A stretch of 39,292 bases of DNA from an uncultured Gammaproteobacteria bacterium (GTDB lineage Bacteria; Pseudomonadota; Gammaproteobacteria; Steroidobacterales; Rariloculaceae), in assembly GCA_913041665.1 (NCBI GenBank), contig CAJWKT010000007.1, positions 1 through 39,292 on the forward strand, given 5' to 3'. Positions 10,323 through 39,176 of this stretch are shown one piece after another. The stretch's first letter is position 1. Each line of letters begins with the position of its first letter. A program made the position numbers and the translations under genes. The notes beneath the pieces were generated by a model that saw nothing but the letters and a program-made list of their open reading frames with translations, was not told where the DNA came from and did no database searches.

Positions 10323-12236
10323 CTACCGCGGCTGGGTTACAACATCGACCAACGCTGGCTCGCCTGCTCGAACATGGGCAAGTGCACGCTGAAGCGCTGG
10401 ACCCAGATCATTCGGATCCTCAATGGGACCTTCACCATACATGCCGTAGGTCTCAGCCATTTTCGCGTAATTGATATTGGGATCGCGAAGGGTTGTTCCA
10501 ATGTGAGCCCTATCAGAGCCGCGCTTCCGTTCCGCACACTGGCGTTGCACAAACATCACTTCCGCGTGATAGGCACGATTATTATGCATCACGGTTAGAA
10601 GCGGGATTTTGTGATGCACAGCCGTCCACAAAACCCCTGGTGCATAGTTAAGATCCCCGTCAGTCTGAATATTGATGGAAAGCCGACCGTGTTTCTTATT
10701 GGCCAGTGCAGCACCAACCGAAGCAGGGGCATTGTAGCCAATACCAGCTGCACCTTGACCACCGATATAATGATAATGTTTTTCCACATTCCACAAGCGA
10801 CCCGGCCACTGACTGATGAAGTTCTGCCAAGAGACTAAAGACCAGTCATCATGCTTAACTTGCCCCCAAAGCTCTGCACACAAACGGGCCAGACTTACTG
10901 GAGTTGCATTCCAGCCATAGGCGGCATCAATACGGTTTTGTTCGTGATCAAGCGCATGTTCTGCCGCGATAATTTCGCCCCGGGCTTTCAACTCCCGCCT
11001 GCGGCCATCAGTGAGCAAAAGCCGAACTTCCTCGATCAGGGCTGGCAATGTGGCCTGTGCATCCGCTGCAATCGATAGATCTACCTCGGCATAGCGCCCG
11101 TAATCATGGATATTGCTGCCATGAAAAAGATCCACCGATGAAATACTGATTGTCCTTGCGCCGGTTCTTTGTGCGGCTCGGGCCTGGTTGTACATGTCAT
11201 TCACTTCGAGCGCCAAAATTACATCGGGCTCGTAGCCGAACCCACCCCTTCCGTAGAGTGGGTGACGCCAAGGGAAATTTACCCGCTCACTACCAGTTAC
11301 TGGAGTTTGCAAGAGTTCAGCGAGCTCTACCAGGAGATCAATACCTTCGGGTGTCCGAGCATAACGCTGCGCAGATATCAGGGGACTTTCCGCCTCAACA
11401 AGCATCCGGGCGGCCTCACGCACTGCATTGGCATCACCCTGCGGAGGTGCCGCCATGGTGAGTCTAGGAACCCTCGGCATTGATTTACCATCAATGGGCT
11501 CTCCCTGCATCTTGTGATCAATCACTACCAGAGTGGGCCCCATAGGCGGGGTCATGCCGATTTTGTAAGCACGAACTGCAGACTGCGCGAATCGTCCTAC
11601 TGATAGCGTTTCATCATCCCATTTCACAAAATCCCGGACCAGGGCACCTAGGTCTTGAGCACTGTGGTAAGCATTCACACCCCCGGCGGGGTCGTAGTGA
11701 TTCGCTGCCATAATATAAACGGGCACCCGATCAGCATACGCGTTGTAGATCGCCATGGAGCCATGCATCAGACCCACCGTGCCATGCAGAAGCGCCATCA
11801 TGGGCTTACCTTCGATCTTTGCGTAACCGTGAGCCATAGCCACCGCGGACTCTTCATGCAAACAGGTCAACAACTCAGGGCTCTTGTTGCCACCATAATT
11901 GATCAGCGATTCGTGCAGACCGTCAAAACTTGAGCCGGGATTAGTGGTTATGTAATCGAGATTGAGAGACTTAATGACATCTACCATAAAGTCCGATGTC
12001 GGGTTCTCTACAAAATGATAACCAGCTTGTTTAGTCGAAGGACCCACTATAGAGGTTAGCTCGGCCTGGGACGGCGGTAACGCACTCGGACGTGGATTAT
12101 CCGACTGCTGAGCATCAACAACGGGGGGCTTTGTCGCCAAGGCCGCCGCACCTACAGCTGCGCCCTTGAGAAAATTACGTCGATCTACCGCATTGTTATC
12201 CCGTGAAACCGGCTGGCGTTGCTTTCCTTTGCTCAT
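10323..12236 (-). CDS. Tat-exported thiamine-diphosphate enzyme, benzoylformate-decarboxylase-like
   Basis: The protein has 637 residues. It begins with a twin-arginine signal, DRRNFLKGAAVGAAAL (Arg19, Arg20), so it is predicted to fold in the cytoplasm and be exported with its cofactor. The PYR domain (about 75-240) carries the catalytic Glu128 in LHEESAVAMAHGYAK. A central domain follows, then the PP domain with TDGDLNY (526-531) and NN at 552-553. The family ThDP motif is GDG-x(24-27)-NN; here the first Gly is Thr525. DGDLNYAPGVLWTA resembles the benzoylformate decarboxylase pattern (GDGSANYSISALWTA, recalled). GGGAGG-like GGGAGG precedes the start. It follows a cytochrome c and amine-dehydrogenase genes and precedes two cytochromes. 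It may decarboxylate or oxidise a 2-oxoacid or aldehyde in the periplasm; the reaction is not established. A 123-base gap upstream may hold an extra promoter. Confidence 0.9.
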   Translation of the reverse strand: MSKGKQRQPVSRDNNAVDRRNFLKGAAVGAAALATKPPVVDAQQSDNPRPSALPPSQAELTSIVGPSTKQAGYHFVENPTSDFMVDVIKSLNLDYITTNPGSSFDGLHESLINYGGNKSPELLTCLHEESAVAMAHGYAKIEGKPMMALLHGTVGLMHGSMAIYNAYADRVPVYIMAANHYDPAGGVNAYHSAQDLGALVRDFVKWDDETLSVGRFAQSAVRAYKIGMTPPMGPTLVVIDHKMQGEPIDGKSMPRVPRLTMAAPPQGDANAVREAARMLVEAESPLISAQRYARTPEGIDLLVELAELLQTPVTGSERVNFPWRHPLYGRGGFGYEPDVILALEVNDMYNQARAAQRTGARTISISSVDLFHGSNIHDYGRYAEVDLSIAADAQATLPALIEEVRLLLTDGRRRELKARGEIIAAEHALDHEQNRIDAAYGWNATPVSLARLCAELWGQVKHDDWSLVSWQNFISQWPGRLWNVEKHYHYIGGQGAAGIGYNAPASVGAALANKKHGRLSINIQTDGDLNYAPGVLWTAVHHKIPLLTVMHNNRAYHAEVMFVQRQCAERKRGSDRAHIGTTLRDPNINYAKMAETYGMYGEGPIEDPNDLGPALQRALAHVRAGEPALVDVVTQPR

Positions 12237-12359: not shown

Positions 12360-12767
12360 TTATGTTTCTATGAGAGACAAGAGCCGGTCCTTCGCATGCT
12401 CCACATCCACTAACGGGTCTTTCCGGTATCGACCGACTTCCTCAGCATCATATGGTTCAAAATCTCTCGGTAAGTTATCCGGGCTGAATTCATAAAGTAT
12501 CCAATTCAGGACTTCGGCTAATTCAGCATCATTGACAAGGGAACCAGAAACACCCGGGACCCGCACCAGAAACTCTCTGCCACCTTCCACCGAAAGGAAA
12601 CGGCCAACTCCGATCAAGGCGGGAATTTTTCCCGAAGTCCCGCCGCCATTAACAAGATGGCAACCCTGACAGTGCAAAATATAGTTGAAATGGGCTGATT
12701 CTGCGTTTGCTTCACTAAATAGGTTAAATACAAAAACTAAGACCGCTAACAGGAACGTTAAACGCAT
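12360..12767 (-). CDS. Cytochrome c without a methionine ligand, in the mauC position
   Basis: The protein has 135 residues with a signal peptide (LLAVLVFVFNLFSEANA). One heme site is present: CQGCH (Cys33, Cys36, His37), followed by LVNGGGTSGKIPALIG. There is no methionine after residue 1, so the usual Met axial ligand is impossible. Where a class I cytochrome would have MPG, the sequence reads VRVPGVSGS. His26, His32 or His124 could be ligands, or the heme may be five-coordinate. It starts four bases after the amine dehydrogenase small subunit, the place of the amicyanin gene in classical mau operons. The GAGGGA at the end of mauA probably acts as its ribosome binding site. It is the best candidate for the direct electron acceptor, but could also be a heme catalyst or a structural subunit. 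Confidence 0.92.
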   Translation of the reverse strand: MRLTFLLAVLVFVFNLFSEANAESAHFNYILHCQGCHLVNGGGTSGKIPALIGVGRFLSVEGGREFLVRVPGVSGSLVNDAELAEVLNWILYEFSPDNLPRDFEPYDAEEVGRYRKDPLVDVEHAKDRLLSLIET

Positions 12768-12771
12768 GGGC

Positions 12772-13317
12772 TCAGTTTCCCTCAGAAATACCTAATACGA
12801 GCGCTACGGTACTGTTGTAAGCAGTAGTTGAGGAAGCGAGGCACCAGTTAATATTGTTTGATTTTGCTGGCACATAGGTGGGCCTGTCATCTTCATTATT
12901 ATTACAAAAACACTGGCCACAACGACTCTGTCCACAACAGTCGTTGTATGAAATGAGGTAATCACGATTGTCAGCGGGATTGCGGCAAGTCCCTACCCAA
13001 GTGACGGCAGACATCTCTGTACCTGGGGGGCAAGAAGTCGCCGTACCCCCGCAACAGGCCGACATGAAACCATCGATTGAACAGTAGCGCCAATAGTCAC
13101 AGCTCTGCGGGTCACCAGCATCCCCCTCAATATCAGGATCCTTGAACCCCATATCAGCTGCCTGTGCACCTACCCGCGACATTGGCAATAACGGAATGGA
13201 GGCCGCGCCGAACAAAAATGTACCCAACTGGGATAAAAAACTACGACGTGAAGTGCGCCTAGCAAAATGCCTAGCACTTATTTCGAACCCCCGATCAATC
13301 CAATTTCTTTGCTGCAT
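12772..13317 (-). CDS. mauA: TTQ amine dehydrogenase light chain (aromatic-amine-dehydrogenase-like)
   Basis: This is the TTQ-bearing small subunit, 181 residues from ATG 13317. The track start at 13338 lies inside the AGGAGG site and is rejected. A long Tat leader (RRTSRRSFL, Arg24-Arg25) ends near AQA. Both TTQ tryptophans are present: Trp107 (AVTWVGTC) and Trp158 (NINWCL), 51 apart as in Paracoccus Trp57 and Trp108. Asp82 and Asp126 match catalytic Asp32 and Asp76. Numbering runs with a constant offset of 50. Cys89 and Cys133 match the extra pair I recall in aromatic amine dehydrogenase (aauA). Cys36 is Ser86 and the partner of Cys36 (Cys121) is Ser169, so one disulfide is missing as a pair. 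Thr170 keeps the catalytic threonine position. It follows mauD by one base. Aromatic or aliphatic substrate preference is not certain. Confidence 0.95.
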   Translation of the reverse strand: MQQRNWIDRGFEISARHFARRTSRRSFLSQLGTFLFGAASIPLLPMSRVGAQAADMGFKDPDIEGDAGDPQSCDYWRYCSIDGFMSACCGGTATSCPPGTEMSAVTWVGTCRNPADNRDYLISYNDCCGQSRCGQCFCNNNEDDRPTYVPAKSNNINWCLASSTTAYNSTVALVLGISEGN

Positions 13318-13318
13318 T

Positions 13319-13945
13319 TCAGGCCACCTCCTCCTCATTTATTTCTTTGCTCTGGGCTAACTCCATAAATTCCTGCAACGATGCGACGCCCCTCTCGCTA
13401 GCCTCAAACAGACTCTCAATGTGCTCTCGAGAATTGACGAGGCCTGTAGAGCGAATAACACCAGTTTCGTCGATTAGCACAGCATGCGGAAGTCTTCCAA
13501 CCCTGTACCCCAGACCAAGTTCCGTGGACAAAAAATATGGAAATTTTTCCAAACGATAATCCCTTACGAATGACTCGTGTTCCTTTCGCTCCCCATCGCT
13601 AGCCAAAAGAATATTCAACCACTTCTTTTCGCGATTGGAGATTGACTTAAGCGCAGGCAACAACGTTTTGCAGACCGGACAGGTTGGAGAAAGAAAAAAG
13701 AGTAAACGGCTGCGCGCGTTTGGAAATTCTCCACCAACCTGATGTAGCTCACCATTCAAATCTCGCAGATTTAATATCGGTGCAGCCTCTCCTACTTTCG
13801 GACCATTGCCAAGCACAAGTGCACCAGCCGGTGCGACCCTTTCGTAGAGAACTCCGATCTGACGAACCAAAGCAAACATCACTGCTACTGTCGCTAGCAC
13901 TACAATCCATAGCAACAGATTTGAAACCAATAGCCCGTTCAACAT
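13319..13945 (-). CDS. mauD: Methylamine-dehydrogenase accessory protein MauD (membrane-anchored thioredoxin fold)
   Basis: The protein has 208 residues. An N-terminal membrane anchor (LLLWIVVLATVAVMFALV, 10-28) is followed by a periplasmic thioredoxin-fold domain with redox motif CPVC (Cys89, Cys92) in FLSPTCPVCKTLLPAL. It matches MauD, which is required for correct disulfide formation in the cysteine-rich light chain. The start has AGGAG seven bases upstream, overlapping the mauE stop, and it ends one base before mauA. The order B-E-D-A is the classical mau/aau order. MauD here would serve a light chain with one disulfide fewer than usual. Confidence 0.94.
   Translation of the reverse strand: MLNGLLVSNLLLWIVVLATVAVMFALVRQIGVLYERVAPAGALVLGNGPKVGEAAPILNLRDLNGELHQVGGEFPNARSRLLFFLSPTCPVCKTLLPALKSISNREKKWLNILLASDGERKEHESFVRDYRLEKFPYFLSTELGLGYRVGRLPHAVLIDETGVIRSTGLVNSREHIESLFEASERGVASLQEFMELAQSKEINEEEVA
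13327..13332 (-). promoter_or_regulatory. Ribosome binding site that fixes the mauA start
   Basis: On the minus strand AGGAGG lies nine bases before ATG 13317. The ATG at 13338 overlaps this site and encodes MRRRW, so it is not the start. With 13317 the gene begins one base after the mauD stop. Confidence 0.75.
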
Positions 13946-13947
13946 AT

Positions 13948-14475
13948 TTATCTCCTGAGACGAGCAAGCTCGGGAACATTAGCAATCAGTCTATTGACTG
14001 TAGCGTAAACCGCCACAAGGGCGCCAACTGCAAAAATAATAGAGATGCTGTCCAGCCACAAAAATTCCCTGGGCTGTACGGGTAACAAACAAGCCAATGC
14101 TAGACCCGCTAACAACAGGTTCCGCCACACCAACCATCCACTCAGGGATTGCTGCGCTAGCCCCATACAACCGCAATCAATATATCGACGGCCTCTGAAA
14201 AGATTGATCCCGATCGCGGCAGCATATATCCCAAATAACCCAGCGCTACTTAGCAAAAAAAAGGAACGGGTGAATGGCAACACCACACCGATACTAAAAC
14301 AAAGCTCCATCCCCACGAGGGCCGCCGAAAAAGGAACTATCGTACTTTCAGGCACCAGTTGATAATCACGTAGGGTGGCAACAAAACCCTCAAAAACAAA
14401 CGCTTTTTTTACAGCTGCTGTAAACCATAAAAGTGCGAGAGCGTAGCAAATTACTAATTCAATAACCGGGTCCAT
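13948..14475 (-). CDS. mauE: Methylamine utilisation membrane protein MauE
   Basis: The protein has 175 residues with about four to five hydrophobic segments (8-25, 48-66, 72-92, 115-133, 145-163). The motif YIDCGCMG (Cys101, Cys103) is the conserved cysteine pair of the MauE family, which works with MauD to supply oxidising or isomerising equivalents for the light-chain disulfides. GAGGGTG precedes the start. It lies between mauB (14 bases) and mauD (2 bases), as expected for the mau order. It is an integral inner-membrane protein. Confidence 0.92.
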   Translation of the reverse strand: MDPVIELVICYALALLWFTAAVKKAFVFEGFVATLRDYQLVPESTIVPFSAALVGMELCFSIGVVLPFTRSFFLLSSAGLFGIYAAAIGINLFRGRRYIDCGCMGLAQQSLSGWLVWRNLLLAGLALACLLPVQPREFLWLDSISIIFAVGALVAVYATVNRLIANVPELARLRR

Positions 14476-14489
14476 TTTCTGATCACCCT

Positions 14490-15671
14490 CTATTGCGCTT
14501 GATTTCTTAGGGTCAGCCGGCCGCTCCCTGGTACGTTTTTCAGCTGCTCGTGTATGTATTCACCCGTGATCGCATTGCGAACAGAGACCCCACCCCCCAC
14601 CGTAACCAATACTGAGCCATCACCTTGGGTGACAAGTATGCCCGAGGCTCCATCACCGCTCGTTGAGCCAATGCCAGTAGTGGCACCAATCTCTTCATCC
14701 TCTCGCTCAGGCACAGCCTCCAGTCGTTGGACACGTTGCCGGGATTCGAGATCATAAACCCAGATTTCAGTACCATCCATGTCACCAGGATCATCTAATG
14801 GCTCCTCGCTCTGGCGGACCAACGAATAGAGTCGGCTGGTCGCCTGATGGATAACTAGGTGTTGCTTCCCCGCAATACGCCAGTTCTCGGCTCGATCCTC
14901 ATCAGTCAAAAGCGACCAGCTATCCTCGAACTGCAGCGTAGCGCCTGATACGTCCAATGGATGAACCACGCCACCGAAAGACACAAACAACCATTGGTCA
15001 CCATAACGCACGCCTGCCTCCGTAATCGGGTCACCCTCCGGATCAAAATAACCAGCTGTGCGCGTTTTCGACAGTTCTCCGCCATCCTCATCTAGCGTCA
15101 CTGAAAGCACGCCACCATCTGCGCACAGCATCAAATAACGACGCTCACCTGCCGGATAAACCAAACTGCACCCGGGCGTGGAAATTTCTCCAACGAACTC
15201 TCTTCTCTCAATATCAACAACACTCAGGGACGTCGCAGGCGTCAAGTTAAAGACTGCAAGAAAACGGTTTTCGTCGGATAGAGCCGTCGCGCCGTCGATA
15301 CTTCCCATGAGAGCTCTCTTCGGAGGAACGATAATCTCATCTACTGGTGCAAGTGTACTCGTATCAAAGATGGTAACCGTGTCCGTACGCTGGCCTCGGT
15401 TGCCTCGTGAGTAAAAACTCTCCACTGTAAACATGAAACGGTTGTCGGCAGAGAACGTAAAGGACGATCCCATCCCTCCGCCTGAGACCCCAGCTATGCC
15501 GAGAAACTTGTTGTCCATAACGTCTACTAGACTGGAGCCGATGAACACCCAATCTGGTTCCGGCTCAACCGGCAGAACCTCGGAGGCCCCATGACTATCG
15601 AATGTCTGAGCAAAGCAAACGTTGGTCCAAAAGATCGCAATAAACAAAAAAGATTGTATTTTTACATTCAT
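14490..15671 (-). CDS. mauB: TTQ amine dehydrogenase heavy chain (beta-propeller)
   Basis: The protein has 393 residues with a Sec signal peptide (FLFIAIFWTNVCFAQ). The body is a seven-bladed propeller typical of the amine dehydrogenase large subunit: GMGSSFTFSADNRFMFTVES, SFYSRGNRGQRTDTV, ERRYLMLCADGGVL and the C-terminal blade GTEIWVYDLESRQRVQRL. In the family it forms an alpha2-beta2 enzyme with the TTQ light chain and oxidises a primary amine to an aldehyde plus ammonia in the periplasm. Position upstream of mauE-D-A supports the call. It starts 22 bases after the DUF6152-fusion gene, so it is likely part of the same transcript. The light chain features favour an aromatic-amine-type enzyme (aauB), which I keep as an alternative name. 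Confidence 0.93.
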   Translation of the reverse strand: MNVKIQSFLFIAIFWTNVCFAQTFDSHGASEVLPVEPEPDWVFIGSSLVDVMDNKFLGIAGVSGGGMGSSFTFSADNRFMFTVESFYSRGNRGQRTDTVTIFDTSTLAPVDEIIVPPKRALMGSIDGATALSDENRFLAVFNLTPATSLSVVDIERREFVGEISTPGCSLVYPAGERRYLMLCADGGVLSVTLDEDGGELSKTRTAGYFDPEGDPITEAGVRYGDQWLFVSFGGVVHPLDVSGATLQFEDSWSLLTDEDRAENWRIAGKQHLVIHQATSRLYSLVRQSEEPLDDPGDMDGTEIWVYDLESRQRVQRLEAVPEREDEEIGATTGIGSTSGDGASGILVTQGDGSVLVTVGGGVSVRNAITGEYIHEQLKNVPGSGRLTLRNQAQ

Positions 15672-15693: not shown

Positions 15694-16938
15694 CTAATTT
15701 CCCAATCCAGGCAAAGCCAGATTATCTTGGTATAGGCAATTGGCTTCTTTCACATCAGATCTCAAGACCCGATCTCTGAACTTTGTGTGCTTCCATTCCC
15801 CTACCCAGTGCTCTGGGTCGACGAACATATATTCAGTCATCAGGGTGTTTCCGTCATTGAGTATTTGTATGCGCTCGATAATTTTCAGTTGACTACCCGT
15901 GACCACGCCTGCTTGCATCATATGATTTTCATCCGTGAATCCTTCAGTTTCCACAACCAATACATCTCCTTCCCAATGAGCTAAGGATTCGCCTCCCCAG
16001 TTGCGGTCAAGATAATTATCGGGCACACGGGGGCGCCCATCGAGATAGATGACCCGGTACTCGTTGTTCAGTCTAGAAATCATAAAAATTGCGGTAGAAT
16101 ATTGAAGCATCATCAAGGAACCGTAGCGTGTCATCATTCTGGGCATTCCAGCCGGATAACAGAAGGCCGTAGGGTCCCGAAAGCGATCCCCTTTTACCGC
16201 CGCCTCCTGATAAGCATCATAGAACGCTTGGCCTTTAGCCGTAAATTGAGGCTCCGGCTTAAATTCGTAGGAGCCATAATTTTCTCTCCATTGATCTTCC
16301 CCTCGATACTGCCACACGCCGGTCAGATCAAAGGATGAATTTTGTTGCTCTTTTTGCAAGTTACTAGGGTCTAATGCTCCGGATACCCGCCCTGTGCTAG
16401 TAGAATCCCCGGTTCCGAGACCATCAGAAATGATAGGCAATCTGTTGGGACGCGTTTTCCTCTCCCGCTCTTGCCACGTTTCTCCCGATGGCGGTGGAAC
16501 ATAGGCCGTCAAGGAGGGGATCACCTGTCGTTGTTGCTCCGGAGTCTCCGGCCCATCCATGGAATAAGCCACTCCATCTGCGGAAATCAGTCCCTGTAGC
16601 AACCCGCCGGGTTCACCGTTTCGCATGGGGTGAACACGGACAGTAATTTCATCACCTTCAGACACGACGTTTCGATCAAATCCCGCTGCAACCATTGTTG
16701 CAATGCTTTGTCCCTCAATTTTCCATAAAACATTAGTACCATCATCATTTTTTACATCCATATTGATGCTGAGGTGCGGGCTACGCCATATGAACTGAGT
16801 GACCTCTCCTGTTACTTGAAGGGATGAATTTGGCTCAAAAGCCACCGCTGAATGGTGAGCAAGTACTGTCGGAGATGAATACACAAACGCAAGCAAAACG
16901 ATCATTACACTGGTGGTTCTACTGATGACTTCTTCCAT
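15694..16938 (-). CDS. Exported DUF6152 fusion protein
   Basis: The protein has 414 residues. A signal peptide (VMIVLLAFVYSSPTVLA) appears to end at LA just before HHSAVAFEP, so the mature protein would begin with two histidines. Residues 28-125 are a DUF6152-type domain (VTGEVTQFIWRSPHLSIN). Residues about 205-414 form a second domain, DLTGVW through RVIYLDGRPRVP, AHWEGDVLVVETEGF, and ERIQILNDG. The same two modules occur separately in the two genes upstream (18007 and 16951). The function is unknown. It precedes mauB by 22 bases, so it is probably co-transcribed with the amine dehydrogenase and may assist it, for instance as a periplasmic binding or assembly partner. That is inference. Confidence 0.82.
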   Translation of the reverse strand: MEEVISRTTSVMIVLLAFVYSSPTVLAHHSAVAFEPNSSLQVTGEVTQFIWRSPHLSINMDVKNDDGTNVLWKIEGQSIATMVAAGFDRNVVSEGDEITVRVHPMRNGEPGGLLQGLISADGVAYSMDGPETPEQQRQVIPSLTAYVPPPSGETWQERERKTRPNRLPIISDGLGTGDSTSTGRVSGALDPSNLQKEQQNSSFDLTGVWQYRGEDQWRENYGSYEFKPEPQFTAKGQAFYDAYQEAAVKGDRFRDPTAFCYPAGMPRMMTRYGSLMMLQYSTAIFMISRLNNEYRVIYLDGRPRVPDNYLDRNWGGESLAHWEGDVLVVETEGFTDENHMMQAGVVTGSQLKIIERIQILNDGNTLMTEYMFVDPEHWVGEWKHTKFRDRVLRSDVKEANCLYQDNLALPGLGN

Positions 16939-16950
16939 GTTAGCTTCTCC

Positions 16951-17994
16951 CTATAACCTACGATCAGCACGATCAATGTATTCTTGCATTTTCCCTTCGT
17001 CGTACAACTGACGAAAAAATGAATCCGGATCACATTCATAGGGAAAAAGAACAGCATCAGCGTCACGATGCCATTGCCGACGGCGAATCGGTGGCCTCAA
17101 ATAATTCTCCGGATCATGTAACGTCATCACAACAGTCAGCATCGTGCCGTCTTCATTCAACTGGTAACGCTCCACGAACTTGGCATTCTCAGACACAGGC
17201 TCACCGAGAAAATCCCTGACATTTCGAGACAGCAAGGTCGTCTCAATTACGAATGTACCACCCTCCCAGTGCCCTGTGGAAAATCCCATGGGTGAGTGCG
17301 GATAATATTCGGGTGGTTCACGCCCATCCAGGTAGACTCGGCGTACTTCACTCCCCACCTCGTAAATAATTGTTATGCGACCTTCGTCAATCAACCACTC
17401 AGAAGGATAAGCTGACCATGCAATCATCGCTACGATTCCAGGTGAAACACAGCGAACATTTGGTTGGTCTAAATGCAGGAGATAATCCTGATGCCAAATT
17501 TTTGCCTCGGGGGTCAAATCCATGGAGTACTTGCGAAAATCCATGCCTGCTGCAGGTATCCAGGTACCGGACAAATCGGCGAGGCGAGGCTCTCCAACGA
17601 TTTCCACATTTTCACTGGCACGGCGAGCAGTCCAAAACGAGCCAGATTCGTTTGAATCGGGTTGGCCAATGATGCTCAGAGTACCGCTCATCACGTTATC
17701 AGTCAGTCTACCAAGTAGACGACGCTCAAAGATAAAGCCAGCAATATCACGGCTGTCTATGATGAGCTCGATCTGGTCGCCTCCAATATTGACTACGACA
17801 GGACCACCCTCAACATGTCCCATCCACTCTGAGCCTAGACGCTGCAACGCCAAAAGACCCACAACATCAGCTGGTGGCACAGCAAGTTCCAGCATCCAAT
17901 CACCAGAAAAGCCAGTTTCCTTTGATTCCTGAGCACAAACAGAGCCAAACAGGACCCCAAAACAAGCTATTAATGGACAAAACTTTTTAAGCAT
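16951..17994 (-). CDS. Exported protein sharing the C-terminal module of the DUF6152 fusion
   Basis: The protein has 347 residues with a Sec signal (FCPLIACFGVLFGSVCAQ). Residues 25-130 are a beta-rich region of unknown family (GDWMLELAVPPADVVG). Residues 135-330 hold the module shared with the 15694 gene: DLSGTWIP, EVRRVYLDGREPP, GHWEGGTFVIETT, and FVERYQLNEDGTM. The region is separated from its neighbours by 12 bases on each side. No enzyme motif was recognised. Many environmental proteobacterial genomes carry such exported modules near periplasmic dehydrogenases (general impression, unverified). It is likely periplasmic and may act in a complex with DUF6152. Confidence 0.8.
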   Translation of the reverse strand: MLKKFCPLIACFGVLFGSVCAQESKETGFSGDWMLELAVPPADVVGLLALQRLGSEWMGHVEGGPVVVNIGGDQIELIIDSRDIAGFIFERRLLGRLTDNVMSGTLSIIGQPDSNESGSFWTARRASENVEIVGEPRLADLSGTWIPAAGMDFRKYSMDLTPEAKIWHQDYLLHLDQPNVRCVSPGIVAMIAWSAYPSEWLIDEGRITIIYEVGSEVRRVYLDGREPPEYYPHSPMGFSTGHWEGGTFVIETTLLSRNVRDFLGEPVSENAKFVERYQLNEDGTMLTVVMTLHDPENYLRPPIRRRQWHRDADAVLFPYECDPDSFFRQLYDEGKMQEYIDRADRRL

Positions 17995-18006
17995 TTTTCT
18001 GCTTCG

Positions 18007-18411
18007 CTAATCGGTATGTCGGTAATCTAACAAGGCACCCGGGGGCAAAACCGTACCATCACCCAGTAGTACCGTCCTAATGTCGAGCAATTTCCTGCCA
18101 TCTCTGCCCCGGTTGCCGGTCATGATAACTTTGTCACCAACTTTGATACTATCCCGAGTCCAACTACCGCGTCTCTGGTAATTTGTAGCACTTCCTCCCC
18201 GAGTATCCCAGATCTCAGTATTCCCTGATTGGGTCTGAACTTCGACGTAATACCGAATATGTGGATTTCTAAACCAGACCCCTGTAACCACTCCTTCGAT
18301 AGTTACCACCTCTCGGATGAACTCTGCCGCAAACGAGTGATGGCCGTAGCCCAAAGTGGGCATGAGACCGAAGCTCAATAACAACCCATAAAAAAGACCT
18401 CGCACGAACAT
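18007..18411 (-). CDS. Exported DUF6152-type protein
   Basis: The protein has 134 residues from ATG 18411; the track start at 18489 adds an unlikely 26-residue leader. The chosen start is preceded by AGGGGG and gives a good signal (GLFYGLLLSFGLMPTLGYG). After it comes HHSFAAEF, then VTIEGVVTGVWFRNPHIRYYVEV, IWDTRGGS and VGDKVIMTGNRGRDG, the small beta-barrel pattern of DUF6152. The mature protein would begin with His-His. It is the first gene of the leftward 11-gene run, next to the divergent control region. Function unknown; metal binding by the N-terminal histidines is a testable idea. Confidence 0.85.
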   Translation of the reverse strand: MFVRGLFYGLLLSFGLMPTLGYGHHSFAAEFIREVVTIEGVVTGVWFRNPHIRYYVEVQTQSGNTEIWDTRGGSATNYQRRGSWTRDSIKVGDKVIMTGNRGRDGRKLLDIRTVLLGDGTVLPPGALLDYRHTD

Positions 18412-18488: not shown

Positions 18489-18523
18489 CTTACTCCTGAA
18501 ATTACAAGCATACGAGGAGTAAG
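18489..18523. promoter_or_regulatory. 9-bp perfect inverted repeat, candidate operator
   Basis: CTTACTCCT (18489-18497) and AGGAGTAAG (18515-18523) are perfect complements with a 17-base spacer. The dyad lies in the divergent region between the amine-dehydrogenase operon and the TTT transporter and abuts the leftward -10 candidate. Arm centres are 26 bases apart, suitable for a dimeric regulator. A hairpin in the leader is the alternative. Confidence 0.5.
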
Positions 18524-34262: not shown

Positions 34263-35384
34263 TTAATGGCAAACGTTATTGGAGAGTCCGATACTAAAGG
34301 CGCCGGCACCACTATATACAGCCGGAATATATCTTATTTCTTGCTTCTCCAGATCGATGACGGCTACCTCAGCTCCATCTTGGAAGGCAACATAGGCGGT
34401 GCGACCGTCTGCAGACCCTAATGCGTCCAGTGGAACGTGGTTGAATTTCCCAGATCGGACCACAGATTTCTGAATATTGTCGTATATATAAAAACTTGGG
34501 TTCTCAGTACTCGCGAGCAAATTCATCCGGTCGAAACGACCCACCGTCACCAGATCAATACCTTCACCGATAATCTGGTCTACGTATTGCTCAAAGCGGT
34601 TTTGCTCAACGGAAAGAAATCGCCCGGTAGCTTTGTCCATCATGTATAAAAACACCCCTTCCGGGGTGGTATAGGGCCGGGCCGGGTCCTCACCAACCTC
34701 GAAGGATCGGTATATCACTTTAGAAAATGCATTGAGGCTGTACACTTCGCCAGACGTCTCGTTCGCTACGTACACATAGCGACCATCTAGGCTTCGGCTT
34801 GGTGATGAGAACTGTTGGTCCCCTCCCTCCGTTAGGCTAATCTCTATTGTTTTACGGACATTGGTATCGATGAGTCCAACTGTGCCGGCCTTACTATTAC
34901 TGTAATAAATATCGATTTCATTCGGGTCAAACAGAACATCTGTCGTGGGTGGAAAATCTTCTAAGGAAAACAAAATTGTCCCGGCATAGGCAGAAAAGAG
35001 CACAAAGCCGCCATCGCGGCTATCCGTAAAACCGATCTTTGAGCCGGTAGTGTCCATCACCATATGCCTAGGTACAATGGGCAACTTCACTCTCTTGGCG
35101 ACCAGTTTATTTTTCAGGTCGTAGAGGGTAACTAACCTCTGTTCAATGTTGGTATAGACCAGAACCGGCGCATGGGGAGTCGCCACCAGATCATCCACTT
35201 TGTAATCTGTTTCTATCCTGAATATCACTTCCTCTTCTCTAAGATCAATCACATCAATGATAGGCTCCAACCCATCAGCAACAAACATCAATCGCAAAGG
35301 ATTCGAGATATCAACCGCTGCCGACGCTGAAGCCGTCCAAACATACCCAGTTACCAGCAAAAGAAATAAGGGTAAGTTTCTCAT
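34263..35384 (-). CDS. Exported YVTN/WD-like beta-propeller protein
   Basis: The protein has 373 residues with a Sec signal (LPLFLLLVTGYVWTASASA). Repeating blades such as GSKIGFTDSRDGGFVLFS, IDIYYSNSKAGTVGLIDT, GRYVYVANETSGEVYSLN and GRTAYVAFQDGAEVAVIDLE give about seven propeller blades. It is the last gene of a four-gene leftward run, 24 bases after the CcdA-type gene. Its size and location resemble an amine-dehydrogenase-type heavy chain, but no light chain is encoded nearby. A structural or sensing role in a periplasmic complex is possible. Confidence 0.85.
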   Translation of the reverse strand: MRNLPLFLLLVTGYVWTASASAAVDISNPLRLMFVADGLEPIIDVIDLREEEVIFRIETDYKVDDLVATPHAPVLVYTNIEQRLVTLYDLKNKLVAKRVKLPIVPRHMVMDTTGSKIGFTDSRDGGFVLFSAYAGTILFSLEDFPPTTDVLFDPNEIDIYYSNSKAGTVGLIDTNVRKTIEISLTEGGDQQFSSPSRSLDGRYVYVANETSGEVYSLNAFSKVIYRSFEVGEDPARPYTTPEGVFLYMMDKATGRFLSVEQNRFEQYVDQIIGEGIDLVTVGRFDRMNLLASTENPSFYIYDNIQKSVVRSGKFNHVPLDALGSADGRTAYVAFQDGAEVAVIDLEKQEIRYIPAVYSGAGAFSIGLSNNVCH

Positions 35385-35408
35385 TTTTCTCGAGTCCTCG
35401 GTGTAAGC

Positions 35409-36767
35409 TTAATTCAATCCAAGATAGGGATAAATAATATCGCTAACAGTATGAAAATTGTCGGTCACCAGAATCAAGCCGAAGGCAATAATCACTGCCA
35501 TGCTTGCATAGCTCAATCTCTTTGCGTGCCGCGCTAGCAGGACAAGGATACTGTCCACTCTTGAAATGTAGTAGGCTGAAAGTAGGAATGGAATTGCAAT
35601 GCCAATCGCGAATGTCAACATGATTCCAGCTCCAATAGCTGCACTACCAATTGCGCCCACGTACACAATAAGGGTCGCTACGATGGCACCACCAAAACAA
35701 GCGGTACAACCAAGCGCGTAACCCATGGATGCAACTACCGTTCCTGCCGTATCCCTAAACGACAAATTCTGCATAGCCCGCGAGTCAGGAATCTTGCAGG
35801 CTAAGTCCCTAGTGCCCCTCAGCCCTACCCAGATACCCAAAGCAATAACAACTAACCCTGAGATGACAGCAATCAGACGACTGTACTCGGCAAATAACAG
35901 TTGGGCCTGGTGCCCAATCGCACCAATTAATGCGCCTGCGAGCGTATACAAAACCACAAATCCCAGCACAAAGGCAATCGCGATCTGGAGAATTTTGCGT
36001 CGTATGATCGGTGTCATCTGAATCTGGGAGCCGCTTCCACCCGGTAGAGTAGAAAACCCAGCGATCACACCGCCAAACATCACCACTAACTGAAGCAAGC
36101 AGGGCGTCAGAACAGAAGACAAGAGCCCGGCACCCAATGCAAGTACCGCTATAGGTGTGACATCGGCTCTCGATTTAAGTTCTTCTGGAAGACTGTACGG
36201 TGCATCCCAGGCACCCACAAAGGTAAGCTTTTGCTCACTTCCCAAATAATAATTAGAGACATACAACCGCATGCTACCAGCCCCATCGATATCAATTAGG
36301 TTGCCTTGTATATCTCGCTTGGGAAAGCTGTACACAGTGACCCGATGATGTTGCGCATTTCTTGGTCCGTCAGATATATCAGGAAAATACTCCTTCTCGC
36401 CCACTTTCAACAATACATCCGGCACTTCGGCTGCGAGAGAGTCCGCGTGAACAGTTTCGCTTACAAAAAATACTAGGTTTCTGTCTGGGCGTAAATTACC
36501 GACGACACTAGCCCGATCCACATACTGAAAATATTCATCGCTTGCGAATGTGGCGGTCAATTCCAACTCTCTGGTATACACGAGCTCACGGGTCAGATAT
36601 CGAGACACGCTACCCGCTTTTATGAGACGGCTATGATCCCCAACACCGCGCAGTAACTGCTTTCCCTGAACAAAATAAGGAAACACTAGCCAAGACGAAG
36701 CAATCAGAAGCCCGATCAATAGCAGCGCCCCTAACTTGATCGGATTGACTCGCGCTATAGTTACCAT
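35409..36767 (-). CDS. CcdA/DsbD-type thiol-disulfide membrane protein with periplasmic N-domain
   Basis: The protein has 452 residues. An N-terminal anchor (12-32) leads to a periplasmic region (35-200) that is beta-rich. Residues 205-452 hold about six membrane helices with Cys223 in LTPCLLQ and Cys354/Cys357 in GCTACFGGA, the two redox-active cysteine positions of the CcdA/DsbD family. The family moves reducing equivalents from cytoplasmic thioredoxin to periplasmic partners, for example for cytochrome c or Cu-site thiols. Its stop and the Sco start sit close together with no gap (36767/36768). The attached N-domain is unusual for CcdA and resembles DsbD organisation, but its fold is not recognised. 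Confidence 0.88.
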   Translation of the reverse strand: MVTIARVNPIKLGALLLIGLLIASSWLVFPYFVQGKQLLRGVGDHSRLIKAGSVSRYLTRELVYTRELELTATFASDEYFQYVDRASVVGNLRPDRNLVFFVSETVHADSLAAEVPDVLLKVGEKEYFPDISDGPRNAQHHRVTVYSFPKRDIQGNLIDIDGAGSMRLYVSNYYLGSEQKLTFVGAWDAPYSLPEELKSRADVTPIAVLALGAGLLSSVLTPCLLQLVVMFGGVIAGFSTLPGGSGSQIQMTPIIRRKILQIAIAFVLGFVVLYTLAGALIGAIGHQAQLLFAEYSRLIAVISGLVVIALGIWVGLRGTRDLACKIPDSRAMQNLSFRDTAGTVVASMGYALGCTACFGGAIVATLIVYVGAIGSAAIGAGIMLTFAIGIAIPFLLSAYYISRVDSILVLLARHAKRLSYASMAVIIAFGLILVTDNFHTVSDIIYPYLGLN

Positions 36768-37379
36768 CTAGCGTGCCTTCCAGTCCTGCCGAACAGCCAA
36801 AAGAATTTCTTCCGGGGAAACATTCACCGCAAATATATTTTGCAAGTCACCGTTGGGACCTATTAGATAGATATTGGCGGTATGCTGCACGGTGTAGTTG
36901 CTCTGTGTCTTGGTTACAGCGTAACTCAATTTAAAATTACTTGCCGCGGTGTTGATCTGTTCATAATCACCACTTAGGCCTATCATTCTGTCTCCAAAGG
37001 CAGATGCGTAATTATCGGTCACCATTGGTGTATCGCGCTCCGTATCCACGCTTACAAAAATACCAACTGCATCTCTCTCCGTTGCCTCCAGTACACTAGC
37101 CATATTGAAGGCCATAAGCGGACAAATCTGCTCACAGTGCGTAAAACCAAAAGCCAGAAGCACGTACTGCCCGCGGAAATTCTCCTCGGTAACGGTCACC
37201 CCGTTCCGGTCTAACAGCTCAAAACTCGCCTTGATGCCATGGAAATTATTGATTGAAGCCATGTCGGCGACATTACCAAGGTTGTGATGCAAATGTTCAC
37301 CCTGACCTTGGGAAAAAGCGGACCCTCTAGGTAGTACAACCAGAAACATCGCATACAATATGACGTACTTTTTTACCAT
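36768..37379 (-). CDS. Sco1/SenC-family copper/redox protein
   Basis: The protein has 203 residues with a signal peptide (YAMFLVVLPRGSAFSQ). The thioredoxin fold carries the Sco motif CEQICP (Cys82, Cys86) in GFTHCEQICPLMAFN and the conserved His166 in VQHTANIYL. FVSVDTERDTP is the other family signature. Sco proteins bind Cu and deliver it to CuA sites or act as thiol-disulfide oxidoreductases. A histidine-rich stretch (GEHLHHNLG) follows the signal. It lies between a CcdA-type gene and a cytochrome c/propeller fusion, so it probably matures a copper or heme site of that system, because no cytochrome oxidase genes are near. Confidence 0.93.
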   Translation of the reverse strand: MVKKYVILYAMFLVVLPRGSAFSQGQGEHLHHNLGNVADMASINNFHGIKASFELLDRNGVTVTEENFRGQYVLLAFGFTHCEQICPLMAFNMASVLEATERDAVGIFVSVDTERDTPMVTDNYASAFGDRMIGLSGDYEQINTAASNFKLSYAVTKTQSNYTVQHTANIYLIGPNGDLQNIFAVNVSPEEILLAVRQDWKAR

Positions 37380-37433
37380 GTCCCTATCTGTCTACCTACC
37401 TCAATGTGCTAACAAGGAGCCTAGCCAGCGCCA

Positions 37434-39176
37434 CTACATCAAAGGGCGACCAAGGGCTGGATTCACGCCGTTATGAAACCCTCCCTGATCACGCACCACG
37501 CGAGACTGGCCTTGCTCGTCATAGTGCACCCAAATAAGCCCGTGAGCGTCTCCGTTTTGAGGCATGTCGATTTTATGGGTGATTTCCTTGGTCTTAGCGT
37601 CATATACATAGATACGGCCCTCACCGTTACTCGTTGACCACATTTCCTTACCATCCGGTGAAAGCAGGACATGATCCGCCTTGTAGGCACCATAAAGCGT
37701 CTCTACTGCGTGACCATTGGAAGTGTCTATCACGGTGATGGTTCGGCCCAAATGGTGTGCACCCTCACCTTTATCAGCGACCCAAAGCTCAGTCTCATCA
37801 GCATTCAGGCTAGCTCCGTACGGCCCGATTCCAGTGCCATTACTCCACTCTATCGCTCCAGTCACCAAGTTAATCTTGGAAACATTAGAGGAACTAGCAA
37901 TCACATAGAGTGCCTCCTTTTTTGAGTCTACGACTGCCCAATTAGGCCGGTAACCGGGAACGGGAATTTCTTGAACCACTTCCCACGTTTTCGCATCTAT
38001 TTTAGCGACCCAAAAGGGCTTCATCGCCACTAATTTACCTTGATACAGATTAATGACACCCCTCATTCCCGTTGAACGTCCTGGCCCATAGCCTCCAGGC
38101 TCCATTAAAGCGTAGATGTACTCGTAGTCCCGGTCCGTCCAAACTGTATAGATCATGCCACCCATATCAATATCTTTAACGCCACCTACTACGGTATCAG
38201 TCTCCGGGTCATACAGCATGAGACCCAGCCCATTCGGATCTCTCGTAAACATATCAAACAGGATGTAATCACCAAAAACCTGGGCATGATGAAGACGCCC
38301 GCCTATGGTTACCTGCTTAATTGGTTGCAACGTGAGTGCATCGACTTTGAGTAAGGTCGCTGAACCCAAAACCGTTTCCTCTAAATCAATGTCTCCATTC
38401 GGCCGGCCGCCAATGATATAAGCGTATCGACCATCGGGTGACATCGCAGAAGTGTGTACTGTGGCACGAAGTTCTTCCGGGATTGCGTAGCTGGCTATAA
38501 TTTCCTTCGTCTCCGCGTCACCAACCACTATCTGGTTCCTAGTTGGTAATTGATAGCCGTCAAAAAGCACCTGAGGAGTGCTGTTCGTTCCCACATTCTC
38601 ATAAAAATAAGTGCGGCCTGGTTGTGGCTTGAATTTCGGTTCCCCCGGATCAAACTCCGCTAAGACCTGGTTTTCATAGTGACTTAGTACGCTCCCCTCT
38701 TTGGCGCGTCGCTCCCAGCTTGTGAGAACCGTGCCAAACGATTCAATGGCCTCAACGGCCAAATCGCGTTCTGTTTTCATGAAGTCGTGGTCAGGTTTCT
38801 GGTTGGCTTTTACAAAAGCGAGCGAATCTCGGTACTGCTGAGGAAGCTCTGGATCCAGAGGAAGTCCACCAAGGGTTCGAATGTACATGGAGATTGCAAC
38901 CAAATCTTCATCGCTGGGATTTAACTCCGAGATGATGACCTGCATCATAGGATTACTCTCAAACTGGGCAAATATATCTGCGGCCGAAGGACCAAAATGC
39001 AGGCTCGGGCCCACAAGTCCTTCACCGGTTTCTTTGTGGCATACCCAGCAACCTACTGGCTTAGCATGGAAAAGCTCTTCTCCTCGGGCAAACAGGATAT
39101 CCATTTCGCTCTGGGCAATGACGGTACCGCCCAGAAAGGATGAAATCATAAAAGAGAAAAATAACTTTCTTTTCAT
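37434..39176 (-). CDS. Exported cytochrome c fused to a beta-propeller
   Basis: The protein has 580 residues with a Sec signal (LFFSFMISSFLGGTVIAQ). Residues 25-105 form a class I cytochrome c with heme site CWVCH (Cys43, Cys46, His47) and Met77 or Met78 in NPMMQVI as the likely ligand. After a linker (110-190), residues 190-580 form a propeller with YVTN-like blades: GRYAYIIGGRPNGDIDLEE, DETELWVADKGEG and SPDGKEMWSTSNGEG. The architecture resembles cytochrome cd1 nitrite reductase (cytochrome c plus eight-bladed propeller), but I do not see heme d1 biosynthesis genes here. It is the first gene of the leftward four-gene operon, presumably a periplasmic electron-transfer dehydrogenase or oxidoreductase. 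Substrate unknown. Confidence 0.87.
   Translation of the reverse strand: MKRKLFFSFMISSFLGGTVIAQSEMDILFARGEELFHAKPVGCWVCHKETGEGLVGPSLHFGPSAADIFAQFESNPMMQVIISELNPSDEDLVAISMYIRTLGGLPLDPELPQQYRDSLAFVKANQKPDHDFMKTERDLAVEAIESFGTVLTSWERRAKEGSVLSHYENQVLAEFDPGEPKFKPQPGRTYFYENVGTNSTPQVLFDGYQLPTRNQIVVGDAETKEIIASYAIPEELRATVHTSAMSPDGRYAYIIGGRPNGDIDLEETVLGSATLLKVDALTLQPIKQVTIGGRLHHAQVFGDYILFDMFTRDPNGLGLMLYDPETDTVVGGVKDIDMGGMIYTVWTDRDYEYIYALMEPGGYGPGRSTGMRGVINLYQGKLVAMKPFWVAKIDAKTWEVVQEIPVPGYRPNWAVVDSKKEALYVIASSSNVSKINLVTGAIEWSNGTGIGPYGASLNADETELWVADKGEGAHHLGRTITVIDTSNGHAVETLYGAYKADHVLLSPDGKEMWSTSNGEGRIYVYDAKTKEITHKIDMPQNGDAHGLIWVHYDEQGQSRVVRDQGGFHNGVNPALGRPLM

Follow-up and report, generated by a model that had tools for sequence, protein, structure and literature searches.

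Three neighbouring genes on the minus strand of a 39,292-nucleotide stretch of DNA from an uncultured gammaproteobacterium (the whole stretch is hereafter the window) present two protein modules both apart and joined, which raises the question of whether these modules work together and, if so, in what role. One module, D, is the DUF6152 domain (PF19649), and its partner, M, is a module carrying the motifs YLDGR and HWEG. When the open reading frames were re-read on the minus strand, the coordinates that the original prediction had given for the three genes proved correct, and the gene order is 18007-16951-15694 (Table 1). For 18007, the ATG at 18411, as chosen in the original prediction, is most likely the start rather than the upstream GTG at 18489, because a clean predicted signal peptide then ends just before HHS, with cleavage between GYG and HHS.

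Table 1 Features of the three genes carrying D and M, with window coordinates and the basis of each assignment.
Feature	Position	Strand	Basis
Standalone D gene (18007): signal peptide and DUF6152, 134 aa, ATG start	18007..18411	minus	PF19649, E = 1.7e-18
His-His, predicted mature N-terminus of standalone D	18337..18342	minus	Sequence and family statistic of small residues at -1/-3
His of Asn-Pro-His turn, proposed third metal ligand of standalone D	18259..18261	minus	Sequence; Pro-His in 237/238 D domains
M-only gene (16951): signal peptide, extra N-terminal beta domain and M, 347 aa	16951..17994	minus	M profile, E = 5e-40; AF2
Extra N-terminal beta-rich domain of 16951, approximate bounds	17617..17925	minus	AF2 strands, low confidence
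M module of 16951, predicted calycin/FABP-like barrel, approximate bounds	17032..17568	minus	BLASTP, M profile, AF2, Foldseek
Fused D-M gene (15694), 414 aa	15694..16938	minus	PF19649, E = 4.8e-21; M profile, E = 1e-37; AF2
Predicted signal peptide of fused protein, ending in VLA before HHS	16858..16938	minus	Sequence and family statistic
D domain of fused protein, predicted OB-fold	16600..16857	minus	Pfam, AF2, Foldseek
His-His, predicted mature N-terminus of fused protein	16852..16857	minus	Invariant in 33 paralogues and a 101-row alignment
His of Pro-His turn, fused protein	16774..16776	minus	P27-H28 (mature numbering) invariant in 101 proteins
M module of fused protein, predicted calycin/FABP-like barrel	15736..16320	minus	BLASTP, alignment, AF2, Foldseek

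The original prediction had described 18007 as DUF6152 alone, 16951 as the partner module without DUF6152 and 15694 as a fusion of the two, and profile searches bore out this division. In Pfam searches PF19649 matched 18007 (E = 1.7e-18, 66.9 bits) and 15694 (E = 4.8e-21, 75.1 bits), both well above the curated cut-off of 27 bits, and gave no match to 16951 up to E = 1. An M profile matched 16951 and 15694, and YLDGR and HWEG are present in both sequences. The M regions are homologous by BLASTP (residues 256-379 of 15694 against residues 178-299 of 16951, 30% identity, E = 3e-10), and 15694 and 18007 aligned over their D parts at 23% identity (E = 5e-8). Homology of the shared C-terminal regions, on which the predicted fusion hung, was also upheld at the level of predicted structure, as M had the same topology of one strand, a helical insert and eight strands in the AF2 models of 15694 and 16951, which share part of their alignments and are thus not fully independent. 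The product of 16951 had no Pfam or NCBIfam match in profile searches, and its predicted extra beta-rich domain (residues ~24-126) had only two other carriers among the loci read, in L042 and L134.

The claim that D and M act together in the periplasm was supported by 35 fusions, adjacency, co-divergence, co-occurrence across the phylum and secretion signals, and a functional link between them is well supported. Of the 39 standalone D genes, 24 had an M-bearing gene no more than 100 bp away in the same orientation, compared with a chance rate of ~4% by rough estimate (2 sides × ~0.55 same-strand close neighbours × ~77/2,200 genes); two of the 15 D genes lacking such a neighbour were at contig ends. 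Separate D-M pairs co-diverged among the paralogues of the window's genome (Mantel r = 0.31, p = 8e-4, 20 pairs) and among pairs of other genomes (r = 0.62, p = 2e-4, 21 pairs), where shared ancestry contributes too. Outside the bacterial family of the window, all sampled genomes with M also had D (8/8), and in each of these the listed match positions placed at least one D within ~1 kb of M or in the same frame. Secretion-type N-termini were recognized by a simple hydropathy test in 29 of 32 M-only, 37 of 39 D and 31 of 33 D-M proteins, with those of the M-only proteins being of signal-peptide or lipoprotein-like type. Because adjacency, co-divergence, co-occurrence and secretion signals agree beyond the original fusion, the Rosetta-stone inference for D and M is well supported. 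A tree of D domains implied a minimum of nine changes between fused and standalone forms; it is poorly resolved, includes at least two 'standalone' rows at contig ends and carries no weight in this argument.

The trio is not special to its place, being one of some 50 D/M loci in the genome. Profile searches of the 2.25 Mb assembly (173 contigs, 86% complete) returned 75 D and 82 M matches, and the stretches read around D contained 39 D-only, 35 fused D-M and 34 M-only genes, counted as mechanical open reading frames in a fragmented genome in which two standalone D genes are at contig ends. The resulting ~110 D/M genes would amount to ~1 in 20 genes if the genome holds ~2,200, which is an estimate. 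Profile searches found D in every one of the 22 genomes of the window's family, with 4 to at least 95 matches apiece, in none of the 17 examined from the order's other families, and in 41 of 398 other genomes of the phylum sample, usually as one copy. All records of this uncultured family in the collection are metagenome-assembled genomes, which their depositors labelled Gammaproteobacteria, Proteobacteria, Rhodospirillaceae, Arenicellaceae, Porticoccaceae or Cellvibrionales; relatives of the fused gene were searched with a four-row subfamily alignment. The D-M expansion is shared by the whole bacterial family. It is also old, since the fused paralogues of the genome are mostly 20-50% identical to each other. 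An assembly artefact or a recent tandem duplication was rejected as the source of the copy number on the same identities and on the occurrence of D in 22/22 family genomes. At L024:458-2005 (plus strand), a gene for a secreted protein with two tandem M modules and no D is followed by a standalone D gene.

What D might do is suggested by its histidines. His-His and Pro-His are among the invariant D residues in an alignment of 33 fused proteins, and HH occurred in 149 of 150 D domains. The residue at -1 was always A, G, S or T (149/149) and that at -3 was A, V, S, L, T, G or I, once C (149 D domains), a pattern that reads as a signal peptidase I site directly before HH. As this pattern precedes HH, mature D very likely begins with His-His, with the cleavage itself predicted. 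Under a looser start filter, HH and Pro-His were present in 237 of 238 D domains, and the sole domain lacking HH also lacked Pro-His. The third D histidine, that of Pro-His, is near-invariant, and a second conserved histidine is available as a candidate ligand. The signature extends to more distant members of DUF6152 elsewhere in the phylum: in all 20 taken from other families, HH after a signal peptide and Pro-His were both found. The window's D proteins share it with these members of the Pfam family and differ from them in their association with M, by fusion or pairing, and in their huge expansion.

In the literature searched, we found no paper naming DUF6152 or PF19649, no description of the His-His/Pro-His signature, no report of measured metal binding by any DUF6152, and no described function, metal site or partner for the family. 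The signature of D fits the principle of N-terminal-histidine metal proteins. An invariant N-terminal histidine together with an internal one is the sequence hallmark of histidine-brace proteins (PMC10952591). Binding of Ni, Co or Cu has been demonstrated for four new N-terminal-His classes found by signal strapping, namely DUF4198, DUF6702, Ang-1 and Ang-2 (PMC12537917). As is predicted for D, the proteins of these classes are secreted, expose a histidine at their N-terminus once the signal peptide is removed, and carry further histidines or other ligands in the chain. Their folds are beta-sandwich or immunoglobulin-like, in contrast to the predicted OB-fold of D. DUF6152 does not figure among the four classes, for none of which pairing with a calycin barrel or a comparable expansion is described.

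Structure models pointed to a separate fold for each module. In the AF2 model of mature 15694, built with 100 homologues, D was confident (mean pLDDT mostly 84-97; residues 1-10 mean 84) and had five main strands with a helix between the third and fourth, M was also confident, and the linker was disordered. Foldseek aligned 88 columns of this model to lysyl-tRNA synthetase in the PDB (rmsd 3.9), which we read as D superposed on the OB domain, such that D is predicted to be an OB-fold. M of 15694 matched the barrels of CRBP, CRABP and FABP (best E = 3.4e-3, probability 1.00), and the top match of the 16951 model was CRABP2 (E = 2.4e-4, probability 1.00). These similarities to known barrels are modest, with E of 2e-4 to 3e-3 and an rmsd of 5-8 across gapped alignments. 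We therefore describe M as a predicted calycin/FABP-like antiparallel barrel with helices after strand 1, a helical insert after the first strand being what it shares with FABP, CRBP, CRABP and other calycins, the top Foldseek matches of two models. It differs from these in being secreted and bacterial, in having an invariant Cys pair (residues invariant in M of the 33 fused proteins include C260, R295, G316, E355, D374 and C401), and in sequence, as M and D-M profiles retrieved no PDB chain even at E = 10. The 67 M modules of the genome had no credible Pfam or NCBIfam match, and judged by these searches M is an unnamed domain without sequence homology to any known calycin family.

From the two-module architecture, pairing, expansion, histidine signature and predicted folds that these computations establish, we infer the following as the best explanation. 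D and M would be halves of one secreted protein, made either fused or from adjacent cognate genes. The signal peptide of D would be cut just before the invariant His-His, and the N-terminal amine, the two histidines and the Pro-His histidine could then together coordinate a single transition metal, most likely copper or nickel, in a site resembling a histidine brace. The M barrel, probably closed by one disulfide, would bind a small, mostly hydrophobic or carboxylate ligand. Within the window's bacterial family, D-M has multiplied to tens of deeply diverged copies, apparently matching many small molecules, while elsewhere D is usually a single copy beside a DUF6644-like membrane protein. Taken as a whole, the reading of D-M as a secreted two-module protein with a metal site in D, a small-ligand barrel in M and many ligand versions has, in our judgement, an even chance of being right.

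In 18 of 20 distant loci, a small membrane-protein gene of one family adjoined D on the same strand; longest-ORF calls were misleading in these GC-rich genomes, and the DUF6644-like neighbour was revealed by all-against-all clustering. The neighbours tested matched DUF6644 (PF20349), some above and some below the cut-off, and one matched DUF2214 better than DUF6644. Within the window's family, at least five genomes had D followed by two DUF6644 genes, and at L022:9136-10155 (plus strand) in the window's genome two tandem DUF6644-like genes diverge from a standalone D. The arrangement is like that of CopC-CopD, in which the gene for a small secreted N-terminal-His protein lies beside that for a multi-span membrane protein, and DUF6644 and CopD may be distantly related; by Pfam, however, the neighbours of D match DUF6644 or DUF2214 and not CopD, and D matches only DUF6152. 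Among the N-terminal-His metal proteins, Ang domains are similarly joined to membrane permeases (PMC12537917).

With such neighbours, D could be a metal chaperone or sequestrator that feeds nearby metalloenzymes or a permease, and M only a docking domain, in keeping with CopC-CopD and the permease-linked proteins. There is no obvious need for 75 diverged metal chaperones per cell, however, and DUF6644 was not expanded alongside D (0-8 matches per family genome). Nor were the neighbouring genes mainly metalloenzymes; by raw Pfam tally the expanded D/M loci had varied neighbours, including TRAP transporter parts, sulfatases, metallo-beta-lactamases, glutathione transferases, amidohydrolases, TonB receptors, PQQ dehydrogenase and oxidoreductases. 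We consider a chaperone unlikely, and the copy number and divergence of D-M lead us to favour a role tied to many small molecules over one in metal supply alone. A single dominant neighbour function around the D/M loci was also looked for, and none appeared in the Pfam tallies.

Many diverged copies would suit substrate-specific enzymes better than metal delivery, and D may instead be a copper-dependent oxidase or peroxygenase with a true, LPMO-like histidine brace, to which M presents the substrate, each copy being an enzyme for a different molecule in periplasmic catabolism. The brace hallmark in D and the predicted barrel fold of its partner are consistent with such chemistry, but N-terminal-His proteins studied experimentally were mainly binders with no notable oxidase activity (PMC12537917), and D is in many cases encoded by itself or with a DUF6644-like neighbour. 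An oxidase seems improbable to us. We are similarly doubtful that D-M constitutes a new class of periplasmic metalloenzyme, combining an OB-fold, an N-terminal tri-histidine copper site and an interchangeable calycin substrate barrel in tens of versions per genome; if true, it would mean that one bacterial family attacks many different small molecules outside the cytoplasm.

The trio lies directly upstream of a MauB-E-D-A-like cluster on the same strand, and the original prediction had hinted at a partnership with amine dehydrogenase subunits. This divergent methylamine-dehydrogenase-like cluster (window 12360-15671, minus strand) has a cytochrome c-like gene adjoining the light chain. Its heavy chain scored 127 bits (equivalog cut-off 454) and its light chain 169 (cut-off 197), MauD was above its cut-off, and the amine substrate may be other than methylamine. 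A light chain occurred in 7 of the 22 family genomes, and a D-M gene at the edge of 4 of these 7 clusters would fit a trio that serves the cluster, perhaps in the maturation or docking of its subunits. However, the other three clusters, in three genomes of one genus, had no D or M within the 19 kb read; in three genomes of another genus, the fused gene lies beside the cytochrome at the opposite end of the cluster, and, of the window's genes, it resembles the M gene most, with only 28-29% identity; and the window's genome has ~50 other D/M loci elsewhere and a single light-chain gene. The hinted partnership is therefore not general, on these seven clusters it is rejected as the general role of D-M, and the already weakened idea that the trio serves its own neighbour is very unlikely.

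Two further loci were noted in the window. Adjoining the amine dehydrogenase cluster, positions 10323-12236 (minus strand) encode a thiamine-pyrophosphate enzyme of the benzoylformate decarboxylase/acetolactate synthase type. Its sequence includes what looks like a twin-arginine signal, RRNFLKG (Pfam TAT_signal, E = 1e-4), and an exported enzyme of this kind, if real, would be unusual. Positions 34263-39176 (minus strand) hold, by eye, SCO1-like, DsbD/CcdA-like, YVTN beta-propeller and cytochrome-propeller genes, and look like a further locus for a periplasmic dehydrogenase or one of nitrite-reductase type.

That D binds no metal, its His-His and Pro-His being structural or needed for export and D-M being only a ligand-binding protein, would agree with the usual binding of nucleic acids, sugars or proteins by OB-folds without metal and with the absence of direct metal evidence from the literature found, but it is the least probable of these alternatives given three invariant histidines, two of them at a predicted new N-terminus, that are conserved in distant families of the phylum but lost together in the sole exception.

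By the estimate above, about one-twentieth of the genes of a small genome are spent on a kind of protein without a described function. For DUF6152 across Pseudomonadota, metal binding by the N-terminal His-His is a concrete and cheap hypothesis. The analysis also defines the unnamed partner domain M, and it indicates what to seek in uncultured bacteria with dozens of such genes.
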